64,000 nt of DNA from a virus: positions 1 to 64,000 of the IMG/VR virus record IMGVR_UViG_3300012582_000004, one strand, 5' to 3'. The notes under the pieces were generated by a model, which worked only from the letters and a program-made list of their open reading frames with translations, searched no databases and was not told the DNA's origin. Made by a program: the position numbers and the translations under genes. Positions within the stretch are counted from its first letter, which is position 1, and every line of letters starts with the position of its first letter. Below are positions 32,186-55,376 of the stretch, one piece after another.

Positions 32186-32881
32186 ATGAAAAACGTTTTA
32201 AATTTTGAGCAATTTGTAAATGAAAATTGGGATTTTCCTGGATATGGTGTTGCTATGAATGGTAATGGTGTGACACCAAATGACCCGACAACGAGCGTAA
32301 ATGCTTATGATAAATTTAAAGCTGATGCTGAAAATCAAATTGCACGTCTTAGATTTATTTTACAAAATGCTTTTGCTGATGCATCTACATTGGATAAATC
32401 TAAATTTGATTTTGTTATAGAAAACTTAAAGGTATTTAGAATATTACCTAATAATAATGGATTTTTAGATATTTACATCAAATTTATATTAAATGAAACT
32501 AATTACATGGGATGTTTTAAAGATTGGGGAAGTAAAAATTGTAAATTTGAAAGTGCTGTACTCGCAGTTCCACAAATAAGAATACATTTAGAAAATAAAA
32601 TAAAACTTGAAGGAATATTCAAAAAATGTTTAACTGAATGGTTTATTCCTAATAATGGTGAATATAAAGCATTAACTAAAATAAAAGTATATGATTTTAT
32701 GGGTGACATTTTTTATATCCCACAAGATGCAAACATAGTAGTTGATGAAGTTGTAACAGAAGATGATAAACCAACAATTAATATTTTATACAAAGAAAAA
32801 ATGTATTATTTGACTAATCTTGACTATTACTTCTTTAATTGGTGGTTTGATACTAAAGAAAAACCTAAATTTTATATCTAA
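32186..32881 (+). CDS. Hypothetical protein with head-targeting-like N-terminal tag
   Basis: 231 residues. The start VLNFEQFVNEN fits the aromatic-x-x-aromatic-x-x-E pattern of T4 capsid-targeting sequences, with VNE as a possible protease site. The remainder is a soluble alpha/beta protein without known domain. AATATATA is at 32069, 117 bases upstream. Predicted to be head-packaged (inference). Confidence 0.65.
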   Translation: MKNVLNFEQFVNENWDFPGYGVAMNGNGVTPNDPTTSVNAYDKFKADAENQIARLRFILQNAFADASTLDKSKFDFVIENLKVFRILPNNNGFLDIYIKFILNETNYMGCFKDWGSKNCKFESAVLAVPQIRIHLENKIKLEGIFKKCLTEWFIPNNGEYKALTKIKVYDFMGDIFYIPQDANIVVDEVVTEDDKPTINILYKEKMYYLTNLDYYFFNWWFDTKEKPKFYI

Positions 32882-33120
32882 ATCTTTTTAACTTGTTTTA
32901 GATTGGATGGATTAGTTACCCTTGATGGAATAATTTCATTATCATATTCATTTACTGCAACTTCTAATTTAGTGATTGCTTCAGAGAAAAACTTATTCGA
33001 TACATTTATAACATATTTAGATGCTAATATTAATTTGTTAGCTCTATGAATTTTTTCTTTTAGAGAATCTATTTCTGCTTTTTGTTTTTCGATAAGGTTT
33101 ATTAAATCTTGCTGATTCAT
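32878..33120 (-). CDS. Small coiled-coil protein
   Basis: 80 residues. The N-terminal half is a heptad-rich helix (LINLIEKQKAEIDSLKEKIH). Converges with the gene at 32186, overlapping by 4 bases. Function unknown. Confidence 0.6.
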   Translation of the reverse strand: MNQQDLINLIEKQKAEIDSLKEKIHRANKLILASKYVINVSNKFFSEAITKLEVAVNEYDNEIIPSRVTNPSNLKQVKKI

Positions 33121-33132
33121 ATATTAATGTGT

Positions 33133-34299
33133 TTATATGTCCATATGACCACTACTCCATCCATTATAAGCATCTTGATCCCATTCCATGTGTGGTGAAG
33201 TTGACATTCTCGCTGGGGGTAATAGAAGTGGTGCTTTAGTTATAGTACTAGAAAAAGGGCTATTATTTAAATTCCTTTTTTTAGATTGCTTATAATCTTT
33301 TTTTTCTTTTCTTGACATTTTATTCCAATTTGGTGGAAAATAAGCAGTTGATATTTTAACATTATTATTAAATGTAATAATAGTCTTACTTCCGTCCGCA
33401 TGGTGAACTATGTCCTCTCTTTTGTCGTTATTTTTCTTTTTAATTTCTACAGGGCGACCTGCATAAAAATCATCTAAGTCTTTTATTGTATATTTTGAAT
33501 AACTCGTTGGTTTTTTAGCAAATTCGTGTTTATAAATCTTTGTAGATAAATCATTGATTATATCATATACAAGTCCTACACAACGTTCAACATCATCTAG
33601 TCTAATAAATTCTGTTGCAGTATGTGGCATATAATAACCACAAGACATATTGAAACAAGCGACATTTAAACCCATTTCTTTTAATTCAACAATATCGGTT
33701 TGTCCACCCATTTCAATTTTATAACCCCATTTTTCCAATAAAGGTTTTAAATCATCTTCAAAATCTTCATTAAATAGCTGAATTCCATGTCCATATTTAA
33801 TGAAATCATCAGCACCTCTTCTATCACACTGAATTAAGAAAGCAGAATCGTTAAAAAATTCCATTCTACATGCACTAGAGCCCACACAACCAATTTCTTC
33901 TCTAGAAAAGAAAGCCACTTTAATGTTATCTAATTTAGATAACATATCTAAGCAGACATATACACCTACTTTATCATCACCACCAATACCATATTGTTCA
34001 TTTTTAACAGTATCAAATGCAATTAAATCACCATTTTCGTTAAATCTAACTTCTACATTCATATTAACATCATGTACAGTATCAATATGAGATACAACAG
34101 TCGGGTAAAAATCGGCTAATCCCTTAGTGACATAAATATTGCCTTCTTCATCATATTCAATGAAAATATCAGCCCCCATTTCAATCATTTTAAGTATTTT
34201 ATCAACGAGGTATTGAACCATCCTTGATTCATCTTTGGAATGTGATTGAATTTTTAAGACTTCAACTAACTTTTCAACATTTATGTTTTGATATGGCAT
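33133..34299 (-). CDS. M20-like metallopeptidase
   Basis: 388 residues. VVSHIDTVHD near 67 and GIGGDDKVGVYVCLDML near 101 hold the first His and bridging Asp; SREEIGCVGSS near 133 the catalytic Glu pair; QCDRRG near 155 an Asp; MPHTATEF near 220 the last His. This is the dizinc set of PepT/M20-type exopeptidases. About 100 C-terminal residues are an extra basic, low-complexity extension not usual in the family. Cytoplasmic. May release amino acids during infection. Confidence 0.82.
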   Translation of the reverse strand: MPYQNINVEKLVEVLKIQSHSKDESRMVQYLVDKILKMIEMGADIFIEYDEEGNIYVTKGLADFYPTVVSHIDTVHDVNMNVEVRFNENGDLIAFDTVKNEQYGIGGDDKVGVYVCLDMLSKLDNIKVAFFSREEIGCVGSSACRMEFFNDSAFLIQCDRRGADDFIKYGHGIQLFNEDFEDDLKPLLEKWGYKIEMGGQTDIVELKEMGLNVACFNMSCGYYMPHTATEFIRLDDVERCVGLVYDIINDLSTKIYKHEFAKKPTSYSKYTIKDLDDFYAGRPVEIKKKNNDKREDIVHHADGSKTIITFNNNVKISTAYFPPNWNKMSRKEKKDYKQSKKRNLNNSPFSSTITKAPLLLPPARMSTSPHMEWDQDAYNGWSSGHMDI

Positions 34300-34315
34300 T
34301 TTGAATATTTTAATA

Positions 34316-34346
34316 CAAATATAGTGATTTTTTTTATATTGTCAAA
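34316..34346 (-). promoter_or_regulatory. Bacteroidetes-type sigma promoter
   Basis: Minus strand TTTG (34346-34343), 19 bases, TATATTTG (34323-34316), 17 bases before the M20-like gene. It separates this gene from the homing endonuclease upstream. Confidence 0.72.
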
Positions 34347-34484
34347 CAAATATTGTTTTAAAAATGAAAAATTTGAATAAATAGGATTTTATAAAGCATT
34401 TCTTCTTTTTTGAATGAATTTTACGGTAAAATTATATAATATAGAGTTATTCTAATTGATGTAGTTGAATTTATGATATAGTAA

Positions 34485-36038
34485 TCATGTTTTATATATG
34501 AAATTTATATTTCCAGAATCATAAATCCTAAATATCTTTCTTTCTAACATTATCTCTTTTTCTGTTTTATTTGTATCGTACCCACTTTTAATTAGAATGC
34601 TTTTTCTATATTTAGATTTATTTTCTTTTTTATGATTAAGTACATAGTAATAATCAGGTTTTGTATTTGATATAAATTTAAAATTTAACTTTTCGTATAG
34701 TTTACCTATACTCCAATTTCTATCTACGCTTGTTATTATTTTTGATGGGTTATATCTTTTCAAAAAATAGTTAAATAATTTTGACGCACCACCAATTACA
34801 GTATAGTTTAATTTACTACAAAAATAAATCATTTTATACATATTAGCATCATTTTTTATATTTTTAAATGTCATTACTGTTGTTAACTCATCATTATAAT
34901 ATAAAGCAATATTTATTTTAGAACATGTATATCCTTGTAAATTATTATTTTCTAAAAACAATTTACTTTCTTTATTATTAATTTCTTTTATTTCACATTT
35001 TCTAGCATAAATTTTATTTGGTGTTTTCCCTAATAAATTTAATATCATAGATTTTACTATATCTTTTTTAAAAAGCCAATCATCTTCGTAAATATGAATT
35101 AATTGTATATTATTTCTTAAACAATCCTCTGTTTTATTTAGATGATAGTCATTATTTTTATCTAATTCACAATGCCAATATAGTCCATTAATTTCAAATG
35201 CAATATTTAAATCAGGTAGATAAATATCCAACTCTTTCCCTTTTAAAATTTTTCTATTAGATTTTATAATATTTAAAGTATAATATTTTTTTATAAAAAT
35301 TATAATTTCGTTTTCAATACCAGATAAATTACTAAATTTTGGATAACAATTTGTACATACCTCAATGTTACTTTTAATTCTATTATAAAATAGACCCATT
35401 GTAATAGTAAAGTCACTATTACAAATTAAATGATGTAATTTAATTTTTTGATAATTTTTATACAGTATCTTGTAATTTATTAAATAATTTTCATTTTTAT
35501 TTAAAAATACATTCGTACTATTTCTCAATGATGAATGATTTTCAACACCATATTTTTCTAAATTAGTGATTTTTATTTTATTTTTTATGTTGTTATCTTG
35601 CACACCATATTCAACACCATATTTTTCTAAATTAGTGGTTTTTATTTTATTTTTTATATCATTATTACTTAATGGATGTCCACCCCAATTTTTAATGAAT
35701 GTGTCTTTTCTTTTTTCTTGAAATTTTTTTATATTAGATGGATTTATTTCGCCATATTTACTATATAAAGTTTTTTTAGATTTTATAATGTTACATTTTG
35801 AACAAACATATGATTTATCACCATTATTTATGCTGTTAAAATATGATGCGTATGAAACATATGTTAAATTTTCACAATTAGAACATTTGCAATTTACTTT
35901 TATTTTACTATAAGGTTTTAAATGATGTGGTAACACATCTATCATATCGCCAGATTTTTCGAATACATAATTTAAATTTTTCCAATATTTACATGTTTTA
36001 TTATGTACAACAACTTTAATAAATTCATCTATAATCAT
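34485..36038 (-). CDS. Homing endonuclease with zinc fingers and Vsr-like (EDxHD) nuclease
   Basis: 517 residues. N-terminal CxxC knuckles (CKCSNC, CSKC) and two LEKYGVE repeats resemble DNA-binding modules of phage homing endonucleases. A Vsr-like core follows: GKELDIYLPDLNIAFEINGL, then YWHC...YHLNKTEDCLRN and IHIYEDDW. These are the E, D, H and D positions of the EDxHD family. It directly follows the helicase gene, a target often invaded by this family, and is probably free-standing because the helicase is intact. Confidence 0.78.
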   Translation of the reverse strand: MIIDEFIKVVVHNKTCKYWKNLNYVFEKSGDMIDVLPHHLKPYSKIKVNCKCSNCENLTYVSYASYFNSINNGDKSYVCSKCNIIKSKKTLYSKYGEINPSNIKKFQEKRKDTFIKNWGGHPLSNNDIKNKIKTTNLEKYGVEYGVQDNNIKNKIKITNLEKYGVENHSSLRNSTNVFLNKNENYLINYKILYKNYQKIKLHHLICNSDFTITMGLFYNRIKSNIEVCTNCYPKFSNLSGIENEIIIFIKKYYTLNIIKSNRKILKGKELDIYLPDLNIAFEINGLYWHCELDKNNDYHLNKTEDCLRNNIQLIHIYEDDWLFKKDIVKSMILNLLGKTPNKIYARKCEIKEINNKESKLFLENNNLQGYTCSKINIALYYNDELTTVMTFKNIKNDANMYKMIYFCSKLNYTVIGGASKLFNYFLKRYNPSKIITSVDRNWSIGKLYEKLNFKFISNTKPDYYYVLNHKKENKSKYRKSILIKSGYDTNKTEKEIMLERKIFRIYDSGNINFIYKT

Positions 36039-36055
36039 TTAAATATAATATTTTT

Positions 36056-37399
36056 TTAATCAAATCTCTTATCATTTATTATAGCAAGATATTTAATATC
36101 TAATTCAAAATGCGTTCTTTCCCATTTGAATCCACCATCTCGCATTTTTAATAGTTTGAGAATGTATTTATTTTCTTTTCTCATAGCATCGGTTCTAATA
36201 ATTCCAAGTACTAAATCCGAAGTTTCAACTATTGCCTTACTTTCAGAAATATCTTGTAAAGTTATATCACCTGCACCAAAATTATCCTTACCAACTTGCA
36301 TTGCAGTTACCATTGCTAAGTCGTATTTTTGTGCAATTGCTCTTAAACCTTCTGATAATTGTTTACCATTACTGAAAAGATTACCTTGTTTATTATCAGG
36401 ACACATAATAGTAAGATAATCAACAATTACCATATCAATTTTAATACCCTTTTTATCTTGTAGCATTTTAATATGATTATCTACATCAGATATAGTAGCA
36501 GAACCAGCAGGGAATTCTTTCACGAAGAATTTACCCATTGGATTTTCAAATAAACTAGAATCCTTTGTAAATTGAGCATTTCTACTTCTACGCTCTTTTA
36601 TTTTAGATTCAATATACTTTATATCTTTACTTCTATGATCATATTCTTCTATAGGAATTTTTAAACTAATTGCACCATATCTCTTCATTACTTTTCTATC
36701 AGACATTTCAAGAGATACATAAAGAACGTTCTTACCATAATTAGTAGCATTAACAGCTATATTTGATAACCATAATGATTTACCTGAGTTAGATGGACCA
36801 ATTATGATAGAAAGTGTTTTTAAATCAAATCCACCCGATGTTAATTCATCTAATGTTTTCCAACCAGTAGGAATTTTATTCTTTAGAGTATCTTGTATGT
36901 GTGATTTAGGATCATCAAAATCTAACCCTAAATTTTCATCATCAAAATTTAATAACATTGAATTACCAAATAATTCTTTCAACTTTGATGCTGCTAATTC
37001 AACGTTATCGTAATCAGCAGGATTTAAATTTCTAACATAGTCAACAGCTTCTTGCATTCTTGATCGAATGTTAGTTGTAGTAGACCATGATTGAATATTT
37101 TTTCTCAACCATTCATCATCTTTCCCTTGTTGATATTGAGATAGATCAACAGCTAGTAATGTTTGTAAATAATCATCTGAAATTTTTCCATGTGGATCAT
37201 CAATTCTAACTATTTGTCTAATCATTTGTGGTGTAGGCACAATAGGTTTTTTAGAACCAATAAAATGATTTCTTATTCTCTGATAAACGAATTGTATTTG
37301 TGCATTCTTAAATGCTATTGGTTCTACTCTATGAAAGTAGGATGGATTATCTAAAATGTAGTTAAAAAAAATTGGTTCTAATGTCTCTAAGTTTTGCAT
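36056..37399 (-). CDS. dnaB: Replicative DNA helicase, DnaB/gp41 type
   Basis: 447 residues, near T4 gp41 length. An N-terminal helical region is followed by a RecA-type motor: IIIGPSNSGKSLWLSNIA at 198-215 (Walker A), VLYVSLEMSD near 225 (motif H1a), DMVIVDYLTIM near 326 (Walker B) and VTAMQVGKDN near 365 (H3). DISESKAIVETSDLVLGI is the arginine-finger region. It unwinds the phage fork as a hexamer. No intein or intron interrupts it. Confidence 0.95.
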   Translation of the reverse strand: MQNLETLEPIFFNYILDNPSYFHRVEPIAFKNAQIQFVYQRIRNHFIGSKKPIVPTPQMIRQIVRIDDPHGKISDDYLQTLLAVDLSQYQQGKDDEWLRKNIQSWSTTTNIRSRMQEAVDYVRNLNPADYDNVELAASKLKELFGNSMLLNFDDENLGLDFDDPKSHIQDTLKNKIPTGWKTLDELTSGGFDLKTLSIIIGPSNSGKSLWLSNIAVNATNYGKNVLYVSLEMSDRKVMKRYGAISLKIPIEEYDHRSKDIKYIESKIKERRSRNAQFTKDSSLFENPMGKFFVKEFPAGSATISDVDNHIKMLQDKKGIKIDMVIVDYLTIMCPDNKQGNLFSNGKQLSEGLRAIAQKYDLAMVTAMQVGKDNFGAGDITLQDISESKAIVETSDLVLGIIRTDAMRKENKYILKLLKMRDGGFKWERTHFELDIKYLAIINDKRFD

Positions 37400-37501
37400 C
37401 TGTATCTATATTTATTCTTGTGTTAATTATAGATAAATTGTGTGATCGGTTTTAAAACTGGTTGATATTTTTCTATATAAGTAAAAAGAATAGTTAAAAA
37501 T

Positions 37502-37699
37502 ATGGATAATTTATTTCCAATAGCACAAAGAATACAATCAAAAATTATAGGAATTGAATTAGTATCGGTTCAACCTTTAGCAACACCAAATTATTATCCT
37601 TACTGGAGGAATATAGTATACGACAGAAAATCTAAAATAGATAGAATATTTAAAAGTCCTGAATGGAGACAACATAAAATAGAAGAATTGTTAAAATAA
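37502..37699 (+). CDS. Hypothetical small protein
   Basis: 65 residues, basic, Pro/Tyr in the middle (PNYYPYWRNIVYDRK). No family recognised. Divergent from the helicase gene. Confidence 0.5.
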   Translation: MDNLFPIAQRIQSKIIGIELVSVQPLATPNYYPYWRNIVYDRKSKIDRIFKSPEWRQHKIEELLK

Positions 37700-37796
37700 T
37701 TACAAAAAATGGTAAATTCATCTTTGAAAAATACAACATTTATTATTTTTAGCGTATAATAGTTACCTAAAATAGGTAAAAAATTAAACTTTAAAC

Positions 37797-38477
37797 ATGT
37801 TAGAAAATGAAAAGAATGAACCTACCGATGATTTAGAAAGCGAAGAAAATTTACCAGGTGATGAATTAGATTCTGATATTTACACCGAATCAGATGGTAC
37901 AGAAGAGCAAGATAATGCAGTGCTTGATGAAGAGCTGGCTGAATTATCAGAAAAAACTGATGAAACTAAATTAGCTTCCGAAGAAGAGTCCAAACACAAA
38001 ATAAAAGGAAAACATTCATTAACACACGATTCAATTTTTAAAGGTAAAAAAAAGAAGGATGAAAACGGTGATGATGATGAATTCTCCGCAGATTTTTTAG
38101 TTCCAAAACAAGATAATTTTGATTTCGATGTTTCATCTGGATACCATGAAGAAACAAAAGATCCTGAAGAATACGTAAGACTTAAAAAGCTTAAAGAAGA
38201 AATTTATATTATTATTATTGAGAAAACTGATATAAATATTAAGAATTCGAGAAGAAAGCCAGGTAGATTAGATTTTAATAAATATTATGGTGTTATGGTA
38301 GAAAACTTAGATACTAAAACATATAGTTATGGTGAAATATTCATAGAATTGTCTTTTTATTTTAGTGATAATATTTTTAATATGTTCAAACTTTTAGATA
38401 AGAAATGGGGAGGAAAGATTATTAAAGAATTAGCAAAGAAAAGAAATATTAGAATAGATCAAATGGATTTTTTATAG
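37797..38477 (+). CDS. Protein with long acidic N-terminus
   Basis: 226 residues. The first 75 are very acidic and probably disordered; a Lys patch (GKKKKDENGDDDE) follows; the last 100 form a compact alpha/beta domain (DFNKYYGVMVENLDTKT onward). No family recognised. Such acidic tails occur in scaffolding and DNA-mimic proteins; role not determinable. Ends in a strong terminator. Confidence 0.65.
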   Translation: MLENEKNEPTDDLESEENLPGDELDSDIYTESDGTEEQDNAVLDEELAELSEKTDETKLASEEESKHKIKGKHSLTHDSIFKGKKKKDENGDDDEFSADFLVPKQDNFDFDVSSGYHEETKDPEEYVRLKKLKEEIYIIIIEKTDINIKNSRRKPGRLDFNKYYGVMVENLDTKTYSYGEIFIELSFYFSDNIFNMFKLLDKKWGGKIIKELAKKRNIRIDQMDFL

Positions 38478-38502
38478 AAAAAAGGGCATAAGCCCTTTTT
38501 TC
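38477..38502. terminator. Bidirectional terminator
   Basis: 11 bp perfect stem GAAAAAAGGGC / GCCCTTTTTTC with loop ATAA, between convergent genes ending at 38477 and 38503. Confidence 0.88.
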
Positions 38503-38835
38503 TTATATTAAATTTTTTATCTTTCTTCTCCTTATAAAATTTGTAAGAATACCTAGTTGATATTCAGTAATTAAAGGTTTACCATTACTGAAACACAATA
38601 CAATTATATCTAATGATTTTTCACTTATATAACATAATACATCGAATGTGTAGAAATCTTTCCAACCTTTTATTACTACATTTTCATATTTATTGTAATA
38701 TCCAACTTCCTCTATAGTTATAGTAATATCATCATAGATACCTTCTTTATTCAATTCAGTTTCCATTTCTAATTTATCTTTACCTTCAAGATAAATTAAT
38801 TCATCAAATATTCCTCTAACAATTATATTTCTCAT
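38503..38835 (-). CDS. Hypothetical protein
   Basis: 110 residues, alpha/beta, no recognised family. Separated from nrdB upstream by a terminator. Confidence 0.6.
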   Translation of the reverse strand: MRNIIVRGIFDELIYLEGKDKLEMETELNKEGIYDDITITIEEVGYYNKYENVVIKGWKDFYTFDVLCYISEKSLDIIVLCFSNGKPLITEYQLGILTNFIRRRKIKNLI

Positions 38836-38842
38836 AATAAAA

Positions 38843-38880
38843 CCCCCTTCAGTTTAATTTTTAAGTTAAACCAAAGAGGG
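38843..38880 (-). terminator. Terminator after nrdB
   Basis: 15 bp stem allowing three G-U pairs (38843-38857 with 38866-38880), 8-base loop, followed on the minus strand by TTTTATT. It lies 25 bases after the nrdB stop. Confidence 0.75.
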
Positions 38881-38905
38881 AAAAAATTAAGTCTAAATTA
38901 TTTAA

Positions 38906-39889: not shown

Positions 39890-39964
39890 TCTATAATATA
39901 CTTATTTTTTTATCTTAATTATTATATTATAAATGATATAATAGTTTAGTTAAATAAGAATAAA

Positions 39965-40003
39965 AAAATCCACAGCTTTAGTAATTCTAAAATTGTGGAT
40001 TTT
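39965..40003 (-). terminator. Hairpin terminator
   Basis: Stem AAAATCCACA / TGTGGATTTT (39965-39974 with 39994-40003) with an inner TTAG/CTAA pairing. It follows the gene at 40024 on the minus strand. Confidence 0.7.
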
Positions 40004-40023
40004 TATTTAATTATAAAAATTGT

Positions 40024-40995: not shown

Positions 40996-41099
40996 TTTAG
41001 TGATTTTATTTTAATTCTTTGATTATAGAATAACTAAATAAAAAAGTTTTAAAAATAGAGAATTATATTATTAAATAATGTTAAAAGTCTGTTTTTTAG

Positions 41100-45946: not shown

Positions 45947-46052
45947 TCTTAAAAATATTTGATTTAAAATATCATTTATTGACAAATATTGGCATTTTTC
46001 AAAATAATATCTATATACGAATATAATATATACTAAAAAGTATTAAAGTTTA

Positions 46053-46307
46053 ATGCAAAATAGAGTTTTATCTTTTTCTGATTATACAAAAGAAAGCACT
46101 TATAAAATGGGTGCTAATGGTATGGAATTACAGGAATGGTCATATTACAAAGATCATTATCCAGAAAAATATGATATGCCCAAAGAGGAGCAATTTGTAT
46201 GGATTATTAAACATAAAGAAAAGAAGATGATAATAGTTAACAGTACTATATCAGAAGACAAAGTTAAAACTATTTTAGAAGAAATGAAAAAAGCAACGCT
46301 TTTATAA
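46053..46307 (+). CDS. Small protein with head-targeting-like tag
   Basis: 84 residues. The start RVLSFSDYTKES fits the tag pattern shared with neighbours (aromatic-x-x-aromatic-x-x-E). The rest is small alpha/beta. AATATATA lies at 46025. Its stop overlaps the next start. Function unknown. Confidence 0.6.
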   Translation: MQNRVLSFSDYTKESTYKMGANGMELQEWSYYKDHYPEKYDMPKEEQFVWIIKHKEKKMIIVNSTISEDKVKTILEEMKKATLL

Positions 46308-46816
46308 TGAATATCTTCAATTTTGATAAATGGAATGATTTAAATGAGGAACGAATAACTCCCATTGGTATAGAGAAATTCAACGAATTACTTATTAAAT
46401 ATGCTCATTCTAATCAAAATGCTTTTTTATACAAAAAGATAATTAATCCTAAAACTAAAGTTGGTATTTTTTTTAAAACTACTAAACAATTTGAAAATCA
46501 TGTTAATGAGCTTAAAACAGGAGAAAAACAAGAATGGAATGGATTTCCATTAAGAGATATGAGTTTAGTTTGCTATAATTACATTGAAAAAGAAGAAGGT
46601 GAAACATTCATGGTATTTCCTTTTAAATCGTCTCTATTTACAATATCTTCAAAAAAAGAGTGGGACACAGATGTAAATAGTGAAAATTGTAATAAAGGAT
46701 ATTGGACAGATAAAATCAAATGGTTAGAAAACTTAGATCAAAGGGAATTATGGACTGAATCACCATGTTTAATAATTTCCAAAAAGATGTGGGATTCATT
46801 AAATAAAAAATCTTAA
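46307..46816 (+). CDS. Hypothetical protein with head-targeting-like tag
   Basis: 169 residues. The N-terminus MNIFNFDKWNDLNEER carries aromatic residues and an LNE site like the tagged group. The remaining chain is alpha/beta and unassigned. Second gene in a three-gene tagged cluster (46053, 46307, 46833). Confidence 0.6.
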   Translation: MNIFNFDKWNDLNEERITPIGIEKFNELLIKYAHSNQNAFLYKKIINPKTKVGIFFKTTKQFENHVNELKTGEKQEWNGFPLRDMSLVCYNYIEKEEGETFMVFPFKSSLFTISSKKEWDTDVNSENCNKGYWTDKIKWLENLDQRELWTESPCLIISKKMWDSLNKKS

Positions 46817-46832
46817 TTTTTATATATACATT

Positions 46833-47555
46833 ATGAAATTTTTAAAGGATTATAAATTATTTGAAAGTTATAATGAGGTTAAATCATTATTGATTAATCC
46901 TACAAGTAATATGAGAAGCAATTATAATAATATAATTAAAGCTATTAATGCGGTTTGTACAGGATTTGGATTAAATACGGGTAAAGAATTACTAAAAGAG
47001 ATCGCTATGGTTGAAACAAGACTCGGTACATTACCTGGTTCTATAAGAACTACAGGTAGAGGTGGTAGAGGTCCATGGCAAATTGATGAAATTGCATATA
47101 GAGATATTATTTCAAGAGGAAAAAAAGAATTCAAAGTATTTTTCAATAAATTTAAAATTTATACAGGTATAGACTTATCACAAGTGCAATGGAATGAATG
47201 TAATCAATTTTTAATAGGATGTGCATTTGCAAGATTGATAATGCAAGAAAGAGGTATTAGTGATAATATTAAAGATAGAGCGGATAGAGCACTTGCTTGG
47301 AAAAAGTATTATAATACTGTTGCAGGAAAAGGAACACCACAAAAATACTGGGAAATAGTTTCAGATTGTAATAAAGCATTAGCAATAAATGATCCATTAG
47401 CGGGTAAAACGTATAATGATTATATAGAAGAAAAAGATCAAATTTTAGCAGCACCTGATACAGAATCAATTATTCAATCACCACTTTATAAACAAAATGA
47501 TGCATCAGAAATTGATTCTACTTATGTTGCGAAAAAGCCATATATTAGTAAATGA
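46833..47555 (+). CDS. Lysozyme/transglycosylase-like protein with head-targeting-like tag, paralogue 1
   Basis: 240 residues. Tag MKFLKDYKLFES with an LFE site. Residues about 45-100 (LLKEIAMVETRLGTLPGS, GRGGRGPWQIDEIAY) resemble the catalytic Glu helix and the glycine-rich QI strand of lysozyme-like transglycosylases, with E probably catalytic in MVETRLG. ALAWKKYYNT...KYWEIVSDC follows. A paralogue is at 63306. It likely cuts peptidoglycan; if head-packaged, it could act during entry (inference). Confidence 0.68.
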   Translation: MKFLKDYKLFESYNEVKSLLINPTSNMRSNYNNIIKAINAVCTGFGLNTGKELLKEIAMVETRLGTLPGSIRTTGRGGRGPWQIDEIAYRDIISRGKKEFKVFFNKFKIYTGIDLSQVQWNECNQFLIGCAFARLIMQERGISDNIKDRADRALAWKKYYNTVAGKGTPQKYWEIVSDCNKALAINDPLAGKTYNDYIEEKDQILAAPDTESIIQSPLYKQNDASEIDSTYVAKKPYISK

Positions 47556-47920: not shown

Positions 47921-49180
47921 TATACTTTCAATTTCTTTGAAGAAAATTGTCTCCACTCTTTCTTTAAAATGTGTTGGATAGTATATGGAATCATGTACGG
48001 TGAACATTTTAATGTCAGGCATCTCTTTTTTTATCTTAATACAAATATTTTGAAAAATTAATTTCGATTCAATAATTTGTAACTTGTGTGCCAGCACTTT
48101 ACTATCATCTTTTTTATATTGCTTCATCCATTCAAATATTCTTGGATATAAATTCTTAAAAATTTTATTCAATCTACATGTTTCATAATTCTTACCAAAA
48201 AATACTTTGTAAATTAATGTTTTTGCTTCCGCTCTTGTTAGAGATGAACACTCCATTATTTCTTCATATATAAGTCCATTTTTTACAGTTTCAAAATATC
48301 TTTTGAATTCTATAGGTTCTTTTTTATCAAAACCAGTTTCTTTTAAAAGTTGAATTAATAATCGTGGTTGAGAATTTTTAATATCCGTTTCACATACAGC
48401 ATGACCATCAATTTTTAAGAATGATGATCTAATATGACTTTTAAGAGTCGTGAAATTTGTGTGAAATCTACCATACTTATCTTCGGTAAAATATGGTTGT
48501 TTATGTGCAATTTCTTCAACACTCATTAAATTTTTATTATAAGCCAAATCTTGAATTTGCCCCGATTTATATAGATAATCTAAATATCTTTTTGACTCAT
48601 GTATATCAATTTCTACAAATAATAAGTCATGTGCTAATAGTTTTTTAATAGGACTTAATGTAGTTATACTCTGCGATTCATCCGCACATAAATCAATAAA
48701 TTGAGAATTATAAAAAGTCCTTTTATATTTATTCAGTATAGTTTTATTAGTATTATATATTCTAATTTTTGAATCAGGTATATTAAATAAATCCTTATTT
48801 ACTTCATATTTTCTAGAGCTTTTTCCAGCACAATGATTCTTTACTTTTTTCAAAAAACCAACATTAACTAAAAATTGTACAACATACTTATAATTAGCAC
48901 CATAAAGTTTTCTAAATACCGTAGAGTTTAAATAAAATATATTATCATCGGTTCTAAATACTTTACATATCAATTTATGTGTTAAATCAAATATAAAATC
49001 TGTATTAACTTCCATATTTCTACTAAGTATATTTTTATTACCATCTTTTGTTGTATATTTACATTCAACAGTTAAAAATTCTTTATTTACATAAGACTCA
49101 AATGATTTAGGAATCCATTGTAAGATACTTTCTCTATTTTCTATAGCTTCTATAACTTCATTTGAAATAATTTTCCTCAT
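47912..49180 (-). CDS. Divergent family-A DNA polymerase-like protein
   Basis: 422 residues from the ATG at 49180. The C-terminal half shows family-A polymerase landmarks in order: GRFHTNFTTLKSHIRSSF, CETDIKNSQPRLL near 262 (motif A), RAEAKTLIYKVFFGKN near 313 (motif B with Lys and aromatic-G) and MFTVHDSIYYP near 392 (motif C, HDS in place of HDE). No 3'-5' exonuclease signature is seen, and the N-terminal 230 residues are unassigned. Could be a lesion or initiation polymerase. Remote similarity. Confidence 0.55.
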   Translation of the reverse strand: MRKIISNEVIEAIENRESILQWIPKSFESYVNKEFLTVECKYTTKDGNKNILSRNMEVNTDFIFDLTHKLICKVFRTDDNIFYLNSTVFRKLYGANYKYVVQFLVNVGFLKKVKNHCAGKSSRKYEVNKDLFNIPDSKIRIYNTNKTILNKYKRTFYNSQFIDLCADESQSITTLSPIKKLLAHDLLFVEIDIHESKRYLDYLYKSGQIQDLAYNKNLMSVEEIAHKQPYFTEDKYGRFHTNFTTLKSHIRSSFLKIDGHAVCETDIKNSQPRLLIQLLKETGFDKKEPIEFKRYFETVKNGLIYEEIMECSSLTRAEAKTLIYKVFFGKNYETCRLNKIFKNLYPRIFEWMKQYKKDDSKVLAHKLQIIESKLIFQNICIKIKKEMPDIKMFTVHDSIYYPTHFKERVETIFFKEIESILE

Positions 49181-49248
49181 ATACACAATATTTACTATTA
49201 TTATAAGAAAGTTATTCTAGTTTTAATATATACTTTAAAATATTTTTT

Positions 49249-49491
49249 ATGGCTAAAATTGTAAATAAATATTCAGATTATATGAAATCCTTAAATAAGG
49301 ACTATGATTGGGATCCTATACCAACTAGGGATATATCACATCAAAAATGGAATCCAAATGCAGACATTAGAGAAATTGGAATAGGTGATGCTGATCCAGT
49401 GTTAAAATTTAAAGATTGGATTGGTCAATATTGGTTAAAAAAACAAGATGTTTCTAAAATCAGAAGAAAGAATAAGAATAAGAAAAAATAA
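49249..49491 (+). CDS. Small basic protein
   Basis: 80 residues with aromatic-rich start (IVNKYSDYMKS), Trp-rich middle (KDWIGQYW) and a basic tail (RRKNKNKKK). AATATATA at 49225. The start partly fits the tag pattern but lacks an LxE. Function unknown. Confidence 0.6.
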   Translation: MAKIVNKYSDYMKSLNKDYDWDPIPTRDISHQKWNPNADIREIGIGDADPVLKFKDWIGQYWLKKQDVSKIRRKNKNKKK

Positions 49492-49526
49492 TGCTATTTT
49501 TTGATATATAGTCAAAAAGGTATAAA

Positions 49527-49799
49527 ATGGCAAACAATAATAGTACAACAAGAAGAGGAAATTACATCTGTAAAGTAGGTGATTTAGATATTTATCAAAA
49601 GACTACACACGAAACATCAGGAAAAGGTAAAAGTGATGTTACTAATTTAAAGATTGTATCAAGAATATTATCAATTTATCACGCAAAGAAACTCTTAATT
49701 GGTGGATTTAAAACTAAAGATTTAGCCGTAGCGAAAGCCACTGAAATTATGGATGGTGGTATGAAAGCTGTCAATAATTTAAAGAAAGGTAAAAAATAA
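49527..49799 (+). CDS. Small basic protein
   Basis: 90 residues, basic ends (RRGNYICK; NNLKKGKK), helical middle. No family recognised. Followed by a terminator. Confidence 0.6.
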   Translation: MANNNSTTRRGNYICKVGDLDIYQKTTHETSGKGKSDVTNLKIVSRILSIYHAKKLLIGGFKTKDLAVAKATEIMDGGMKAVNNLKKGKK

Positions 49800-49803
49800 T
49801 ATA

Positions 49804-49835
49804 AAAAGGGTTTTTCTAATTAGAGAAGCCCTTTT
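49804..49835. terminator. Bidirectional terminator
   Basis: 14 bp stem with three G-U pairs (AAAAGGG... / ...CCCTTTT) and loop AATT, between the convergent genes ending at 49799 and 49820. Confidence 0.78.
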
Positions 49836-50080
49836 ATTTTTCTATTCCTACACCAAGCCAAATAAGAATTTTTATGCTCATTCATTAACACATTCGTTAA
49901 ATCTTCTAATGTATTCATATCATCAGATGATAAATCATTATTTAAATATCTTTTACTAATAGCCTCAAAGTAACCCCAAAGGTATTCATTATCCTGAACA
50001 TTTAACATAATACTTTTATATTTTGAGAATTCGATAATTAAATCCAATTCATCAAACAAGTTCTTTGTTTTTTTTGTCAT
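49820..50080 (-). CDS. Hypothetical protein
   Basis: 86 residues, helical. No family recognised. Overlaps the upstream gene by 29 bases; the 3' end reaches into the terminator. Confidence 0.58.
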   Translation of the reverse strand: MTKKTKNLFDELDLIIEFSKYKSIMLNVQDNEYLWGYFEAISKRYLNNDLSSDDMNTLEDLTNVLMNEHKNSYLAWCRNRKIKGLL

Positions 50081-50741
50081 TAATGTATATATCGATAATA
50101 GTGGATATTTTGTTATAAAATGGTGATGGTTCTATCCAGAAATTCTCTTCGCCTTTACCATATAATTTATTCAAAATTTGTTTTAATTTTATGGAATTAA
50201 TGGCTATTTTTGAATTACTCTGAACAGTTAAATAATAATTATCCACCGAATTACATTTTATTATTAATTGAACATAACCAAGGCTAATTAACATAGTGAA
50301 CATATCATTTCTATTCTTAATTAATTTTTCTATTATTATACCATAATTCTTAAAAAAATTAACAATTTCTCTAACTTTATTCGAAAGTGTAAAATCTAAA
50401 TTTTCTGCTATAAGTTTGTTATTAAGATATTCATCATTATAAAAACCATTTTTTAAAATGATTTCTTTAGAGTAAACTAATATTTTATATCTACCCTTAT
50501 ACTTAAAAAATTCTCTGTCTTCACTCAATTTAGACTCTATTTCAATAAATTTATTCCAAAAGATTAGATTGAATGCATTATTTTCATAAACTTTTAATAT
50601 AAAATCATCATTTAAAATGGACTCCACTTTAAATTTTCTAAATACTTTATAATCAGGTATTTCCTCAAGAAAAATACCATTTAACTTTAAAAAATCAACA
50701 ATTTTGCTTATTCTATCCACTTCAATTATAGTTAAAGACAC
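50052..50741 (-). CDS. Hypothetical protein, GTG start
   Basis: 229 residues from GTG 50741; no ATG occurs before the middle of the protein. Lys/Asn/Ile-rich, alpha/beta. No family recognised. Divergent from the HD gene. Confidence 0.58.
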   Translation of the reverse strand: MSLTIIEVDRISKIVDFLKLNGIFLEEIPDYKVFRKFKVESILNDDFILKVYENNAFNLIFWNKFIEIESKLSEDREFFKYKGRYKILVYSKEIILKNGFYNDEYLNNKLIAENLDFTLSNKVREIVNFFKNYGIIIEKLIKNRNDMFTMLISLGYVQLIIKCNSVDNYYLTVQSNSKIAINSIKLKQILNKLYGKGEENFWIEPSPFYNKISTIIDIYINDKKNKELV

Positions 50742-50761
50742 AAAAATGTTTATAATTAATA

Positions 50762-50791
50762 TTGTATATTTGATAATTTTTATTATATTTG
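50762..50791 (+). promoter_or_regulatory. Bacteroidetes-type sigma promoter
   Basis: TTG at 50762-50764, 19 bases, TATATTTG at 50784-50791. It decides the start of the next gene: TTG 50789 lies inside the promoter, so ATG 50810 is used. Confidence 0.6.
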
Positions 50792-50809
50792 TTATTAAAC
50801 TTTAAATTA

Positions 50810-51634
50810 ATGGGTGTTGTTATTATACTAATACTTGTATCTTTACTTATTTATGTTACCCTATCAGATGATAAAAAATCACCTTATAGAAATTATGATG
50901 ATATTTCAAAAGTAGAAAGAGATGATTATTTCAGAAAAACTACTTTGAGAATAAGAATTAAAAAAAATCTATCCGTATACTTTAAGGCAAATTTCTTAAA
51001 TATGATCACAAATATGATAATTGAAAGGCACACAGAACCTTGGAGAGCGTATCATACTATGAAACATATTAACTCTATTCTTGATATGTTAGAGGATAAT
51101 GCTGTAGTATTCTCTAATAGAGATGTATATGGTCAATTATTTTTAGTAGCTGTATATCATGATATTGTTTATAAACCTTGGAGAAAAGATAATGAAAAAA
51201 TGAGTGCCGAACTTTTTAAAAAGCATTGGACTAAATATGCAAAGAAATCGCCCAATAAAAACATAATTGAAAATTTTGTATATAATTGCATAACACAAAC
51301 AAAAAATCATGATGGCGAAAAACATTTAGAACATGTATTTAATTCTTTAGATATGTCTATAATAAGTGGAACTAAAGAAGAAGTTATGTTATGGGAGAAA
51401 GAAATAGCGAAAGAATATAGCTTTATCCCATATAAAATATACAAAAAACATAGATTAGAATTTTTAGAAAAATTCAGTCAATATGGAAATATAATCAAAG
51501 TTATAGAATATGTTAAAAATACTAAAAGTACTAATAATCCACTTTTATATTTCTTAAATAGCTATTTTAAGTTATATTCACATAAAATCAGCAAATTTTT
51601 CACTATAGATATGGATTTCGATATAGATATTTAA
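50810..51634 (+). CDS. Membrane-anchored HD-domain phosphohydrolase-like protein
   Basis: 274 residues. An N-terminal membrane helix (GVVIILILVSLLIYVTL) is followed by RAYHTMKHINSILDML near 77 and VAVYHDIVYKPWRKDNEKMS near 105. These are the H...HD motifs of the predicted metal-dependent phosphohydrolases of COG4339 type. The usual later Asp may be in SLDMSII. Substrate unknown. The anchor is an unusual addition. Confidence 0.75.
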   Translation: MGVVIILILVSLLIYVTLSDDKKSPYRNYDDISKVERDDYFRKTTLRIRIKKNLSVYFKANFLNMITNMIIERHTEPWRAYHTMKHINSILDMLEDNAVVFSNRDVYGQLFLVAVYHDIVYKPWRKDNEKMSAELFKKHWTKYAKKSPNKNIIENFVYNCITQTKNHDGEKHLEHVFNSLDMSIISGTKEEVMLWEKEIAKEYSFIPYKIYKKHRLEFLEKFSQYGNIIKVIEYVKNTKSTNNPLLYFLNSYFKLYSHKISKFFTIDMDFDIDI

Positions 51635-51683
51635 AACATAGGCTTTTAATTTTGCTATAATAAGCAGATAAAATATAAATTTT

Positions 51684-52253
51684 ATGAGAAATTCAATAAT
51701 AGAAGAAGTAACAGAAGCAACTGCTGTATTATATAGATTTGCAAGCAATGAGAAGAACATTGCTAAAATAGAAGCATCTGCATCAATTCTGATAGATGCT
51801 TTTAAAAAAGGTAATAAGGTAATAACTTGTGGTAATGGTAGCTCTCATTGTGATGCTATGCACTTTGCAGAAGAGCTAACTGGTAGATATAAAGAAGACA
51901 GAAAACCTTTACCAGCAATTGTAATATCAGATACATCATACATATCATGTGTATCTAATGATTACGGTTATTCAGAAGTATTTAGTAGATATGTAGAAGC
52001 ACTCGGAAAAGAAGGAGATGTTCTTTTTGCTATATCTACATCTGGAAATTCTGAAAATATTATTAAAGCTATAGAAGTAGCTAGAAATAAAGGCATGAAA
52101 GTTATAGGATTAACTGGTAAGCATGGTGGTAAAATGAAAGGTGTGTGTGATATTGAAATAAGAGTACCACATTTTAAATATGCTCATAGAATTCAAGAAG
52201 TACATATAAAAATTATTCATATTCTAATAAATTTGATAGAAAAATCATTATGA
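51684..52253 (+). CDS. gmhA: SIS-domain sugar isomerase, GmhA-like
   Basis: 189 residues, full GmhA length. [27 protein letters not shown] near 42-68 and [16 protein letters not shown] near 110 are the SIS sugar-phosphate loops; LTGKHGGKM and the terminal [15 protein letters not shown] fit GmhA, where Glu and His are catalytic. GmhA makes heptose 7-phosphate for LPS or nucleotide-heptoses. The stop overlaps the next start (ATGA). Confidence 0.88.
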
Positions 52254-52924
52254 AAGTAATTACTATTGGAGATATTCATGGTAGAGATCATTGGAAAAAA
52301 ATAAATCCATATGAGTGGGATTTAATTATATTTATAGGTGATTATGTGGATTCTTTTAATCATAGTGGACAAAGATGTTTAGAAAATTTAAGAGAGATTA
52401 TAGAATTTAAGGAGATGTATAATGATAGAGTTATACTACTTTTAGGTAATCACGATATTCATTATTTATACTTAGATACTCAATGGAGAGGTGCTGGTTT
52501 CGATGCAGAAATGATTCCTTATTATAGACACATCTTTAGTAATTACTATAATTTTCAAATAGCATATCAAAAAGATAATTATTTATGGACGCATGCGGGT
52601 GTAAATAAATGTTGGTTTGATAAACACATACCAAATACATCTAATTTGGAAATAGCTAATGTTATTAATGAATTACAGATAACTCAGGAAGGTAGAGAAG
52701 CTTTATTTAATATGGGATATGCAAGAGGTGGGATTGGATATGGTGGTCCTATTTGGTGTGGTAAAAAAGAAATGTATAGAGACCCTCTTACAAATTTCAT
52801 ACAAATAGTCGGCCATACACCTGTTAAAGAAATTGAGCAGGAAAATAGCAAGGAAGATAATAGCACAATTTATTACATAGATTGTTTGCGTGATAGAGTA
52901 GACTTCTTACAACTAACAATTTAA
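52250..52924 (+). CDS. Calcineurin-like metallophosphatase
   Basis: 224 residues. Motifs in order: GDIHGRDHW (7-15), FIGDYVDSF (about 27-35), LLGNHDIHY (about 67-75), WTHAGV and VGHTPV. These give the complete two-metal site. Similar to PrpE/serine-threonine and Ap4A phosphatases. Coupled with gmhA; together they may act on a sugar phosphate, or the pairing may be fortuitous. Confidence 0.88.
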
Positions 52925-52925
52925 A

Positions 52926-53315
52926 ATGGGAAAGATTTTACAAAATGCAGCATATTGTTTAAAATGTGATACTTATATCATTTCTACACATACACACGAT
53001 TATATAACATGTTATTGTGGTAATATTGCTGTAGATGGTGGAAGTGAATATTTAAAGCGTTCTATTGATGAAAAAGAATCTTACGATGATTTCAGCTTAA
53101 ATACCGAAAGTATCCCAGAAGAAATTAGAGCAAAATTGTTATGGGGCTCAAGAGGTAAGGATGGTACAGAACCGTTAAAATTTTTACCAATTGGACAAAG
53201 AGAAACTGATCATTTAGAGGCTATTTTGAAAACACAAACTCAAATAAATGAGTTATATAAAACTGCAATAAGAACAGAATTAAGAATAAGAAAAATATCG
53301 AACGCATCATTCTAA
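52926..53315 (+). CDS. Zinc-ribbon-like phage protein
   Basis: 129 residues. CLKC...HTHDYITCYCGNIAVDGG near 12-40 forms a two-CxxC/CxC zinc ribbon of a kind common in phage proteins of unknown function. The rest is helical (HLEAILKTQTQINELYKTAI). One base after the phosphatase stop, so same transcript. Confidence 0.68.
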   Translation: MGKILQNAAYCLKCDTYIISTHTHDYITCYCGNIAVDGGSEYLKRSIDEKESYDDFSLNTESIPEEIRAKLLWGSRGKDGTEPLKFLPIGQRETDHLEAILKTQTQINELYKTAIRTELRIRKISNASF

Positions 53316-53603
53316 TTCAGATTCATCCGTTCCATCATCTTCAATTTCTTCCTCTGACATTTGAATTAGATATAAAGTTAATTCTTGAAATATTTCATTC
53401 ATCTGTGTATAATCGAACCATGTTGTACTATTTTCAAGAATTTCTAAAAATTCAACAAATGTATCTGTATCTGGCTGAAAATGAATAAATGCTTTATCAT
53501 AGTCTAATCCTCTTTGATTAACGTATTGACAGAAGATAGAGTAAAAATCTTCTTCTTGTTCGGATGGTAATCCTTTATATTCTTCCCACTCGCTATAGTT
53601 CAC
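53307..53603 (-). CDS. Hypothetical acidic protein, GTG start
   Basis: 98 residues from GTG 53603, very acidic, ending EEIEDDGTDESELE. Overlaps the upstream gene's stop by 11 bases, so translation is probably coupled. No family recognised. Confidence 0.58.
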   Translation of the reverse strand: MNYSEWEEYKGLPSEQEEDFYSIFCQYVNQRGLDYDKAFIHFQPDTDTFVEFLEILENSTTWFDYTQMNEIFQELTLYLIQMSEEEIEDDGTDESELE

Positions 53604-54666
53604 TTTCTTTATTCTCTTTAATTTTACACTTTATATTTAAAAGACTTGGTGCTAAATGCTTTAAAGCGATAAGAATTTTTATATCATTACCATCAACTAC
53701 TAATTCAACTATAAAATCTTTATTTTCATTAACTAAGAATCTTTCTTTAATATTAGTACTTGATTTTTCGATCCATTCTGATTTAGATGGAATATTAATT
53801 ATATTCATTTTAGAATCAAATCTGAAATAAGATTCATCTGATATTGCATGATATTTCAATAAAATATTATGTACATCATCATATCTTTCATCATGTTCTT
53901 TAACAAGAGGGTATAATACATCTTTATTAAGAATATCATTCTTTATATTTAGATATTGAGATTTGAATGTGCTGAAATCATTGAATGCATCAGGGGTTTT
54001 AGATAAATCAACATTCAAGTCATAAAAAGAACTGTAATATAATTTAGGTAAAGCTTCTATTTTAATTCCCAATCCTTTCATTTTAAAATTTCTATAAGTT
54101 TCCCAAGTTATTTCACCAATAATGTCTAAGAAATTAATATAATGCTTTAAAAATTCATCTTTCAAATTAGCTTTTACTAATTCTACCCATTTAGTAATTA
54201 ATACATCCCAATTATCATGTGTATAAATTCTTCTAGCTGTAAATCCTAAGAATTTCTCTATATCAGTAAGTGATACTTTATCATCTACATTTTTGTTTCT
54301 TATTACATTATTATCAATTATTATACCACCATTATTTAAAATTTTAATAGATGATATATCTGCGAATTTTTCTTTTATTTTTAAAGATGCTTCAAAACAT
54401 TTCTTTAACTTAGCCCAATCAGATTCAATATTTATACCTTTGATATTAATTAAATGTTGCTTTTCAATTTTTATTTCAGGAGTTTTTTTAATTTCAATTA
54501 TAAGTCCTTGCCAAAATGAATTATCAGTTAAAAAGAAACGATTTTTCATAGAATTTAAAAAATCAAAATACTCAGGTTTAAATACAGCTAATGCAGTTAT
54601 AACCGAATAAATTAAAGGGAATTCACTTTTTCCTTCAGTTAAATATTCATTATATTTCTTAACCAT
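53593..54666 (-). CDS. Hypothetical protein with head-targeting-like tag
   Basis: 357 residues. Start MVKKYNEYLTEGKSE has the aromatic-x-x-aromatic spacing and an LTE-G site, the closest match in the window to the T4 internal-protein cleavage site. The rest is alpha/beta without known domain. Predicted head-packaged (inference). Confidence 0.65.
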   Translation of the reverse strand: MVKKYNEYLTEGKSEFPLIYSVITALAVFKPEYFDFLNSMKNRFFLTDNSFWQGLIIEIKKTPEIKIEKQHLINIKGINIESDWAKLKKCFEASLKIKEKFADISSIKILNNGGIIIDNNVIRNKNVDDKVSLTDIEKFLGFTARRIYTHDNWDVLITKWVELVKANLKDEFLKHYINFLDIIGEITWETYRNFKMKGLGIKIEALPKLYYSSFYDLNVDLSKTPDAFNDFSTFKSQYLNIKNDILNKDVLYPLVKEHDERYDDVHNILLKYHAISDESYFRFDSKMNIINIPSKSEWIEKSSTNIKERFLVNENKDFIVELVVDGNDIKILIALKHLAPSLLNIKCKIKENKESEL

Positions 54667-54743
54667 TTAGAGCATTGTTTTTGTTATATATTAATTTTTA
54701 CAGTTGTATTGATAGTTTGAATAGAAAAAATAATATATAGAAT

Positions 54744-55376
54744 ATGAAATATTTGAAAAGATTTAAGTTGTTTGAGAAATCATTGGAAGAAGCGGTAGAA
54801 GAATTAAAAGACTTTCAAAAGGAATTAGACATTAACTCAAATCTTACTAAGCTCATAAAATCTATAGATGGCATCGAATTAGAACTTAGTACGATATTCG
54901 AACATTTATTAGGCGATGAAGATATTACGGAATTAGAAGATGATCCTAAATTTAATAATGAATTATCCGATAGAAATTTAAAAATTAGTGAATTATTTGA
55001 TACAGAGGAATCAGCCACTTTAATAAAGCTAAGACTTAAATACTATTGGATTTATACAACAGATTCAACAGAATTGGATACACCTGTTTATATTCTACTA
55101 CAATGGGTAAATAAAGACAACACACTATCAAATATAAGACTTTTTTACGTACAGAAAGATATAACAAATTTCTATGATGAATTATCAACTGTTAAAATGA
55201 TAGTGAAACAAAAAGATAAAAAAAGCAATAAATGGATTTACATTAGTAGTAATTCTGGACAAAATTGGGTATTACAAAATGCCGAAAATGCTACAACAAC
55301 TTTTAAACAGACTTTAAATGCTGAAGATGTTGAAGAGCTATCAAAACACCCCGATGTTATAGTAGTTTTTGAATAA
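54744..55376 (+). CDS. Hypothetical protein with head-targeting-like tag
   Basis: 210 residues. Start MKYLKRFKLFEKSLEEAV has the tag and an LFE site, almost identical to the lysozyme-like protein's start (MKFLKDYKLFES). Next to the divergent tagged gene at 53593. The rest is acidic, unassigned. Confidence 0.65.
   Translation: MKYLKRFKLFEKSLEEAVEELKDFQKELDINSNLTKLIKSIDGIELELSTIFEHLLGDEDITELEDDPKFNNELSDRNLKISELFDTEESATLIKLRLKYYWIYTTDSTELDTPVYILLQWVNKDNTLSNIRLFYVQKDITNFYDELSTVKMIVKQKDKKSNKWIYISSNSGQNWVLQNAENATTTFKQTLNAEDVEELSKHPDVIVVFE

Follow-up and report, generated by a model that had tools for sequence, protein, structure and literature searches.

What do proteins with otherwise dissimilar sequences gain from beginning with nearly the same dozen residues? 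This question is raised by a stretch of 64,000 nucleotides, positions 1 to 64,000 of the IMG/VR virus record IMGVR_UViG_3300012582_000004, which was analysed as a whole and is called the window below. A preliminary description of the window pointed to seven open reading frames (ORFs) whose predicted products share a short N-terminal tag, and proposed that this tag resembles the capsid-targeting sequence (CTS) of phage T4 internal head proteins. The first 10 residues of the T4 internal protein IPIII suffice for packaging, and the T4 prohead protease gp21 cleaves after L/I-x-E (PMC9026906). The evidence presented here makes it likely that the tag is a T4-type capsid-targeting sequence, used on a very large scale (10-20% of genes) by the phage from which the window derives and by its nearest relatives.

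The starts of the seven ORFs proved to be as described. Each predicted protein carries an aromatic-x-x-aromatic arrangement within its first 12 residues, and five of the seven also carry (L/V)-x-E (VNE, LNE, LFE, LTE and LFE). We defined a strict form of the pattern, [FYW]xx[FYW][ILVMFT]xE, and sought it in residues 2-17, with shuffles within each N-terminus as the null. In the viral contig that holds the window, this strict pattern occurs in 6 of 558 proteins, compared with 2.0 by shuffling. The excess is mild, and therefore the window alone is not proof of a tag.

The contig is 347,857 bases long and is identical to part of LR756504.1, the genome (636,363 bases) of an uncultured phage in which the window occupies positions 378400-442399. 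Because the contig runs from 378400 to 636363 and then from 1 to 89893, LR756504 must be circular or circularly permuted. Its nearest relatives by RecA similarity are LR756502 (642 kb), LR745206 (635 kb) and LR756501 (735 kb). The five genomes larger than 634 kb in the described set are reported to belong to the Mahaphage clade, and their predicted hosts are Bacteroidetes (PMC7162821). Our genome set consisted of LR756504, these three relatives and T4, and genes in the four huge phage genomes were called with a simple home-made script.

The tag recurs throughout four huge phage genomes

A genome-wide search of N-termini, as proposed in the preliminary description, revealed the strict pattern in 24 of 880, 52 of 957, 30 of 922 and 28 of 891 proteins, against shuffle expectations of 3.3, 4.1, 3.0 and 3.6 in the same order of genomes. 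A motif trained each time on three of the genomes and then tested on the one left out marked 86/880, 125/957, 191/922 and 149/891 N-termini, with approximately 9 expected in each case from windows located behind internal methionines. Sequence composition as the source of the motif is ruled out by the shuffles and by these internal-methionine controls.

An unsupervised fit gives the consensus M-K-[YH]-[LI]-K-x-[FY]-[EN]-x-F, and the 5-mers that recur most widely among different proteins in LR756504, LR756502 and LR745206 are the tag pieces MKYLK, MKHLK, YKIFE and KLFES. Three spacings of the tag can be distinguished by eye, namely [FY]xx[FY][ILV]xE (as in MKNIQSFKEFLNES), [FY]K[IL]FE (as in MKYLKRFKLFEKS) and [FY]NE (as in MKHLKKYNES). 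The typical tag ends with a hydrophobic residue, any residue and Glu, and the next residue is often Ser, Ala, Asn or Gly. In proteins encoded at LR756504 47163, 62693, 312206, 330120 and 614951, the tag is followed by an acidic stretch (MKYLKLYENFSEDWDDEE...), and this combination of tag and acidic linker may constitute a tag sub-class.

The end of the tag shows marked residue preferences. N-terminal aromatic pairs have (I/L/V)-x-E nearby 3 to 8 times as often as internal pairs, with no enrichment of Asp at the same places; the frequency of LxE along the protein is highest at residues 8-14, where LxD has no peak. Asn precedes Glu (position P2) in 26-58% of strict tags compared with 7-9% of internal LxE sequences, and S/A/G/N follows Glu in 48-64% compared with 21-23%. 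Within residues 6-20, [ILVM]xE is present in 54-60% of tagged proteins and the broader [ILVMFY]xE in 71-85%, compared with 22-34% for untagged proteins.

The head protease carries the motif in tandem

The head module of LR756504 is located at 165-191 kb, outside the contig that holds the window, which is why a PF03420 protease search of this contig alone gave no match. The module includes a sheath-like gene (165663), a terminase gene (170838), a capsid protein gene (183588; Gp23, E 8e-26), a protease gene (185342-187636; phrog_207, E 2e-32) and a portal-like gene (189266), and the portal was confirmed in LR756501 by a Portal_T4 match (E 1e-69). A gp21-type protease, whose presence the preliminary description had identified as a check, is thus found by phrog_207 in all four genomes, with a further E value of 4.9e-27. 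The Pfam match of the protease to PF03420 falls only below the curated cut-off. The catalytic His (in GE..HP) and Ser (in VSSR) are invariant among these proteases, as in gp21.

The C-terminal part of the protease is a scaffold-like region with 11-14 tandem 14-residue repeats (for example DKNIAYSEYIAENL), and every tandem repeat holds the strict tag motif (YSEYIAE). When all proteins were evaluated with their N-termini excluded, this protease-scaffold protein had the most internal motif copies in each genome (11, 14, 11 and 11), and the next best had 2-7. A structure prediction for the protein was mostly helical but of low confidence (predicted local distance difference test score of 54), and was not used as evidence.

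The remaining sequence check raised at the outset was a comparison with capsid and scaffold N-termini, and all three of these checks favoured the preliminary reading. Most of 30-odd relatives of the capsid protein carry a precursor site of the type (Y/L/M)AE(F/Y/M)H(S/Q)(I/L/M)NE followed by N, where cleavage is predicted after the Glu, and the core of the predicted site among relatives is [IML]-[NH]-E. The precursor N-termini of the proteases likewise carry SLNE, KLNE, LVRE and similar sequences as predicted cleavage sites.

These findings bear on the possibility that the tag directs proteins elsewhere, for example as an amphipathic membrane anchor or by import into a replication compartment, with its likeness to the T4 CTS arising by convergence. 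The consensus is indeed basic and amphipathic, and huge phages are known to organise the cell. However, a signal of this kind leaves unexplained the preference for Glu alone at the cleavage position, the P2 and P1' preferences that the tags share with the capsid and protease precursors, and both the tandem copies in the head protease-scaffold and the late-type upstream element described below. In addition, the known replication genes in the window (RecA/UvsX-like, DnaB-like and ribonucleotide reductase) are untagged. We therefore regard another localisation signal as decidedly improbable.

Tagged proteins have diverse bodies

Grouped by their bodies, the 635 tagged proteins found in the four genomes fall into 508 clusters, 432 of which are singletons, and the alignment consensus is confined to the tag. 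A single paralogous family was rejected as the source of the tag, since the largest cluster within one genome has 14 members. The preliminary claim that only the tag is shared, and not the bodies, therefore holds genome-wide, but it fails for one pair in the window: the products of the genes starting at 46833 and 63306 are paralogues (39% identity, both matching phrog_3108).

Both partners are tagged in 88 reciprocal-best orthologue pairs, where 17 would be expected by independence. Untagged orthologues often begin at the body, as exemplified by W04_470485 (MKLFKYIEFINENSKNEYSIPSYEEAV) versus W01_260965 (MIEKFHIPSYEEAV) and by W03_399134 (MRRVKSFRSFKHRKSPKGKDLSIFVRFGGLDLK) versus W01_16392 (MKGKSLDVFVRFGGLDLK). 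Such comparisons indicate that tags are gained and lost between orthologues as modules.

A domain can be recognised in only a minority of tagged proteins. Among these are RNA ligase, CCA/polyA polymerase, NUDIX, RNase T, HNH and methyltransferase proteins, as well as PPK2, glutamyl-tRNA synthetase, radical SAM, GNAT and an Acb1-like 2H phosphoesterase (LR756504 63145-63699; E 6.5e-07, just above Pfam's cut-off). The term ‘effectors’, by which the preliminary description referred to these proteins, is consequently only partly apt, as most of the recognisable members are enzymes that act in RNA/tRNA repair and metabolism. One speculation is that such a leaning towards RNA/tRNA repair would be fitting as protection from anticodon nucleases at entry. 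Some listed proteins, such as DegT and TatD, are likely to be false positives judging from their N-termini, because ordinary N-termini can fit the motif by chance.

The diversity of bodies also speaks to the idea that tagged proteins serve only as parts of the prohead core or as helpers of the scaffold, which would enter by means of the tag and then either act in assembly or be lost at maturation, with no injection. It is difficult to reconcile such a role with the extreme number of body types, with the great variation of bodies among relatives, or with enzymes that have no assembly role (RNA ligase, CCA/polyA polymerase, PPK2, radical SAM, methyltransferases and the Acb1-like 2H phosphoesterase). 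Although the motif is common to tags and scaffold repeats, and loss of T4 IPIII affects head assembly (PMC9026906), we consider a purely helper function unlikely.

Tagged genes share an upstream element with head genes

An upstream element, TAATATATA, is common to tagged genes and to the sheath, portal and capsid genes, and the tagged genes as a group share a TTTTAATATATA-like element. To genes of at least 100 codons with intergenic DNA upstream, we applied a test for AATATATA, which precedes 31/58, 36/59, 55/75 and 51/69 tagged genes (53-74%) compared with 44/325, 57/261, 64/278 and 59/260 untagged genes (14-23%); the enrichment is significant in each of the four genomes (p 1e-8 to 2e-15). 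The element also precedes the protease gene in LR756501, and other untagged genes that have it include those for very large virion-like proteins. Because the element is shared with head genes, and because the head module encodes a homologue of the gp55-type late sigma factor (phrog_234, E 8e-10), we interpret the element as a probable late promoter. In LR756504, LR756501, LR756502 and LR745206, AATATATA favours two positions relative to the start codon, approximately -12/-13 and approximately -26 to -34. The shorter spacing would give nearly leaderless late mRNAs.

Since the same AT-rich element often precedes the tag, sometimes only 12 bases away, the shared N-termini could conceivably reflect a DNA-level artefact, either duplicated 5' ends that include the promoter or a start context that enhances translation. 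Synonymous codons in the tags, however, follow genome-wide usage, and hence selection acts on the peptide. Moreover, the three length variants of the tag share a protein rule and not a DNA sequence, tags are kept in orthologues, and the head genes have the upstream element without the tag. On the strength of codon use and body diversity we rejected this explanation, which has very little chance of being correct.

Distribution of the tag and the repeat array

The association between tags and the tandem array was examined beyond the four genomes. A repeat search of annotated phages matched only the four relatives, LR756503 and LR756500. LR756503 is also 735,411 bases long, with the same coordinates as LR756501. 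LR756500 (462 kb), which was picked for its degenerate array, has 12 strict tags compared with 1.4 expected in the 300 kb tested, and the same LELIA sequence occurs after several of its tagged N-termini. The link to AATATATA in this genome is weak (3/12 tagged versus 28/361). Among protease-bearing viral contigs, 75 of 629 neighbouring genes are tagged where at least five motif copies are present, compared with 17 of 450 for contigs with 0-1 copies, some of which are truncated members of the same group.

Neither tag enrichment nor an array was found in the whole genomes of Lak-A1 (541 kb, TAG read as Gln) and cyanophage S-RIM32, despite the phrog_207 protease that each carries, or in the 100 kb examined of Ochrobactrum phage OC.

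A possible route from tag to delivery

The proposal that these tags are T4-type capsid-targeting sequences is well supported by the positions of the motif, the specificity for Glu, the protease with its tandem motif copies, the capsid sites and the promoter-like element common to head genes. From this evidence we infer a pathway of scaffold binding, cleavage, packaging and injection. Late in infection, tagged proteins would be made together with the head proteins, and the N-terminal aromatic-x-x-aromatic peptide would bind the growing scaffold core. This core would be built from the fused protease-scaffold protein with its 11-14 motif copies, such that each tag mimics one scaffold repeat. During prohead maturation, the gp21-type protease is predicted to cut scaffold repeats, capsid precursor and tags alike, in each case after (I/L/V)-x-E, thereby clearing the scaffold and freeing the cargo inside the head. 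The freed cargo would then leave the head with the DNA at the next infection.

In this manner the phages studied here, which are among the largest bacterial viruses known, may each deliver at least a hundred different proteins from their heads into the host. In its fullest form, the proposal holds that the head is a bulk delivery vehicle, which each phage loads with 90-190 different proteins (10-20% of the proteome) through a mix-and-match tag that imitates one docking and cleavage repeat of the protease-scaffold; this we judge to be evenly poised between right and wrong. If it is true, a gene that gains approximately 12 codons becomes cargo, and the cargo would include enzymes of RNA/tRNA repair, of nucleotide and polyphosphate metabolism, and of anti-defence.

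Several observations weigh against the reading of the tags as capsid-targeting sequences. Packaging of more than 100 kinds of protein would far exceed what is known for T4, and glutamyl-tRNA synthetase and PPK2 are not obvious effectors for the first minutes of infection. Approximately 15-45% of tagged N-termini have no clear hydrophobic-x-E in residues 6-20, and so some tagged proteins may be uncleaved or may not be cargo. Scrambled AT-rich controls of the upstream element are also enriched before tagged genes, if more weakly (p 1e-4 in W01), and the tagged gene at 32186 in the window has no promoter-like element upstream. The co-occurrence of tags and arrays is confounded by ancestry, because the array-bearing phages form one group. 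When the huge-phage motif, which includes MKYLK, was scored on T4, the internal proteins were not ranked first; only the core pattern picks them. Finally, packaging is a process that we strongly infer from sequences of uncultivated phages.

Should the proposal be correct, hundreds of unannotated huge-phage genes are predicted virion cargo with a predicted processing site, and a simple sequence rule can predict which proteins are delivered with phage DNA. Such cargo would be part of the reason for the very large genomes, and presumably heads, of these phages. The sorting of internal proteins into the T4 core would become testable by means of a scaffold in which the sorting motif is repeated in tandem, and the tags might serve as programmable tags for Bacteroidetes phages.

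Tagged genes in the window

The first tagged gene in the window (32186-32881, plus strand) encodes a 231-residue protein with the CTS-like tag MKNVLNFEQFVNE (32186..32224), which contains the strict motif FEQFVNE. Its orthologues W03_272723 and W04_255747 start LILEFTEFNLQ. Next is an 84-residue protein (46053-46307, plus strand) whose tag MQNRVLSFSDYTKE (46053..46094) reads FSDYTKE, with T in place of I/L/V; a late-promoter-like element (A[AT]TATATA or TATATATA) resides at -28 (46025..46032). The start of the following gene (46307-46816, plus strand; 169 residues) overlaps the stop of this gene, and it is therefore probably on the same transcript. Its tag MNIFNFDKWNDLNE (46307..46348) is weak, having F-x-x-W and then LNE at a longer spacing (motif score 1.8).

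Three further genes carry higher-scoring tags. The 240-residue product of 46833-47555 (plus strand), which matches phrog_3108 with an E value of 5.5e-12, starts MKFLKDYKLFE (46833..46865), a type B tag (YKLFE; score 10.2), and an element is located at -12 (46821..46828). On the minus strand, 53593-54666 encodes a 357-residue protein that starts MVKKYNEYLTE (54634..54666; strict motif YNEYLTE, score 11.7), with an element at -26 (54685..54692). The 210-residue product of 54744-55376 (plus strand) starts MKYLKRFKLFE (54744..54776; score 12.8) behind an element at -12 (54732..54739), and its relatives W04_556311 and W02_476705 (28-29% identity) start MRYIKSYKTFKE and MRIKGYNKFVKE. The remaining gene (63306-63917, plus strand; 203 residues, phrog_3108) has the weak tag MKHIKPIYEFFNRK (63306..63347), an aromatic pair without LxE (score 7.5), and an element at -14/-12 (63292..63301). 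The element consequently precedes five of the seven tagged genes in the window, with 46307 located directly after 46053.

Two borderline candidates on the plus strand are absent from the earlier list. These are an 80-residue protein, MAKIVNKYSDYMKSLNKD (49249..49491; score 5.7, element at -24), and a 179-residue protein, MQYFKKFENINKK (5391..5930; score 5.4, element at -27).

No tagged protein of the window matches Pfam, and phrog_3108 is the only PHROGs match; relatives of the 63306, 54744 and 53593 proteins were not found in viral contigs. The phrog_3108 family, of unknown function, is also present in small Klebsiella, Vibrio and Pseudomonas phages. By eye, a GxGPWQIDE stretch in the two paralogues recalls lysozyme-like folds. 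A third copy, at LR756504 254402-255166, starts with a hydrophobic leader and not with a tag.

Some additional features were noted. At 58446-62740 of the window, the gene for the large subunit of ribonucleotide reductase looks interrupted when inspected by eye: 58446-59663 ends in an intein-like N-terminal part, 59717-60640 is a separate ORF that resembles a homing endonuclease, 60649-60861 contains an intein-like C-terminal end, and the remaining reductase follows from 61208. The contig ends carry a 123-base perfect inverted repeat (LR756504 89771-89893 and 378400-378522), which is probably the site where contig assembly stopped. Across the whole of LR756501.1, 92 different proteins together contain 107 copies of the peptide DPYGEExW(D/E/N), of which 46 lie close to a C-terminus and 24 close to an N-terminus. 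The copies vary in their synonymous codons. Neither T4 nor any of the other three genomes has this peptide, which looks like a short linear motif specific to LR756501.

Comparison with T4 and other known systems

We found no description of such tags in huge phages in the literature covered, which excluded subscription papers and most preprints. The N-terminal extensions of ribosomal protein S21 (PMC7162821) were considered as tags and set aside, since S21 frames in the four genomes span only 64-70 residues and leave little room for a tag. In phage P1, an N-terminal signal of DarB packages a reporter into the head (PMC9024508); the P1 Dar proteins share no N-terminal consensus, whereas the huge-phage tags share one. 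The giant phages phiKZ and SPN3US package many head proteins that are cut by the prohead protease C-terminal to Glu (PMC5694885). Their sites are A-x-E (S-x-E in phiKZ), their propeptides are mostly approximately 80-160 residues long, and they have no recognised short common tag and no confirmed scaffold protein (PMC5694885). The huge-phage sites do not conform to this type of propeptide, as they are (I/L/V/M)-x-E within the first 8-14 residues.

The closest parallel is T4. In the T4 CTS, positions 4 and 7 serve targeting and positions 8 and 10 serve processing, and Asp at position 10 blocks cleavage but not targeting (PMC9026906). Both ipII and ipIII start MKTYQEFIAE, with aromatic residues at 4 and 7, Ile at 8 and Glu at 10. 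As a positive control, the strict pattern applied to T4 proteins of at least 60 residues finds ipII, ipIII and one other. The huge-phage tag is arranged in the same way, in most cases with an offset of two or three residues.

As in T4, where IPI, IPII, IPIII and Alt are served by gp21, the huge phages combine N-terminal stretches of 10-19 residues, aromatics three apart and (I/L)-x-E with unrelated bodies, and have a gp21-type protease, a T4-type portal and a Gp23-type capsid. Unlike T4, each huge phage has about 90-190 tagged genes rather than a handful, most tags have an extra MK[YH][LI]K lead and occur in three spacing variants, and the protease is fused to a scaffold-like part with tandem motif copies, whereas gp21 and gp22 of T4 are separate. 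Beside these differences, the huge-phage tags and the T4 CTS agree on every feature that is testable by sequence.

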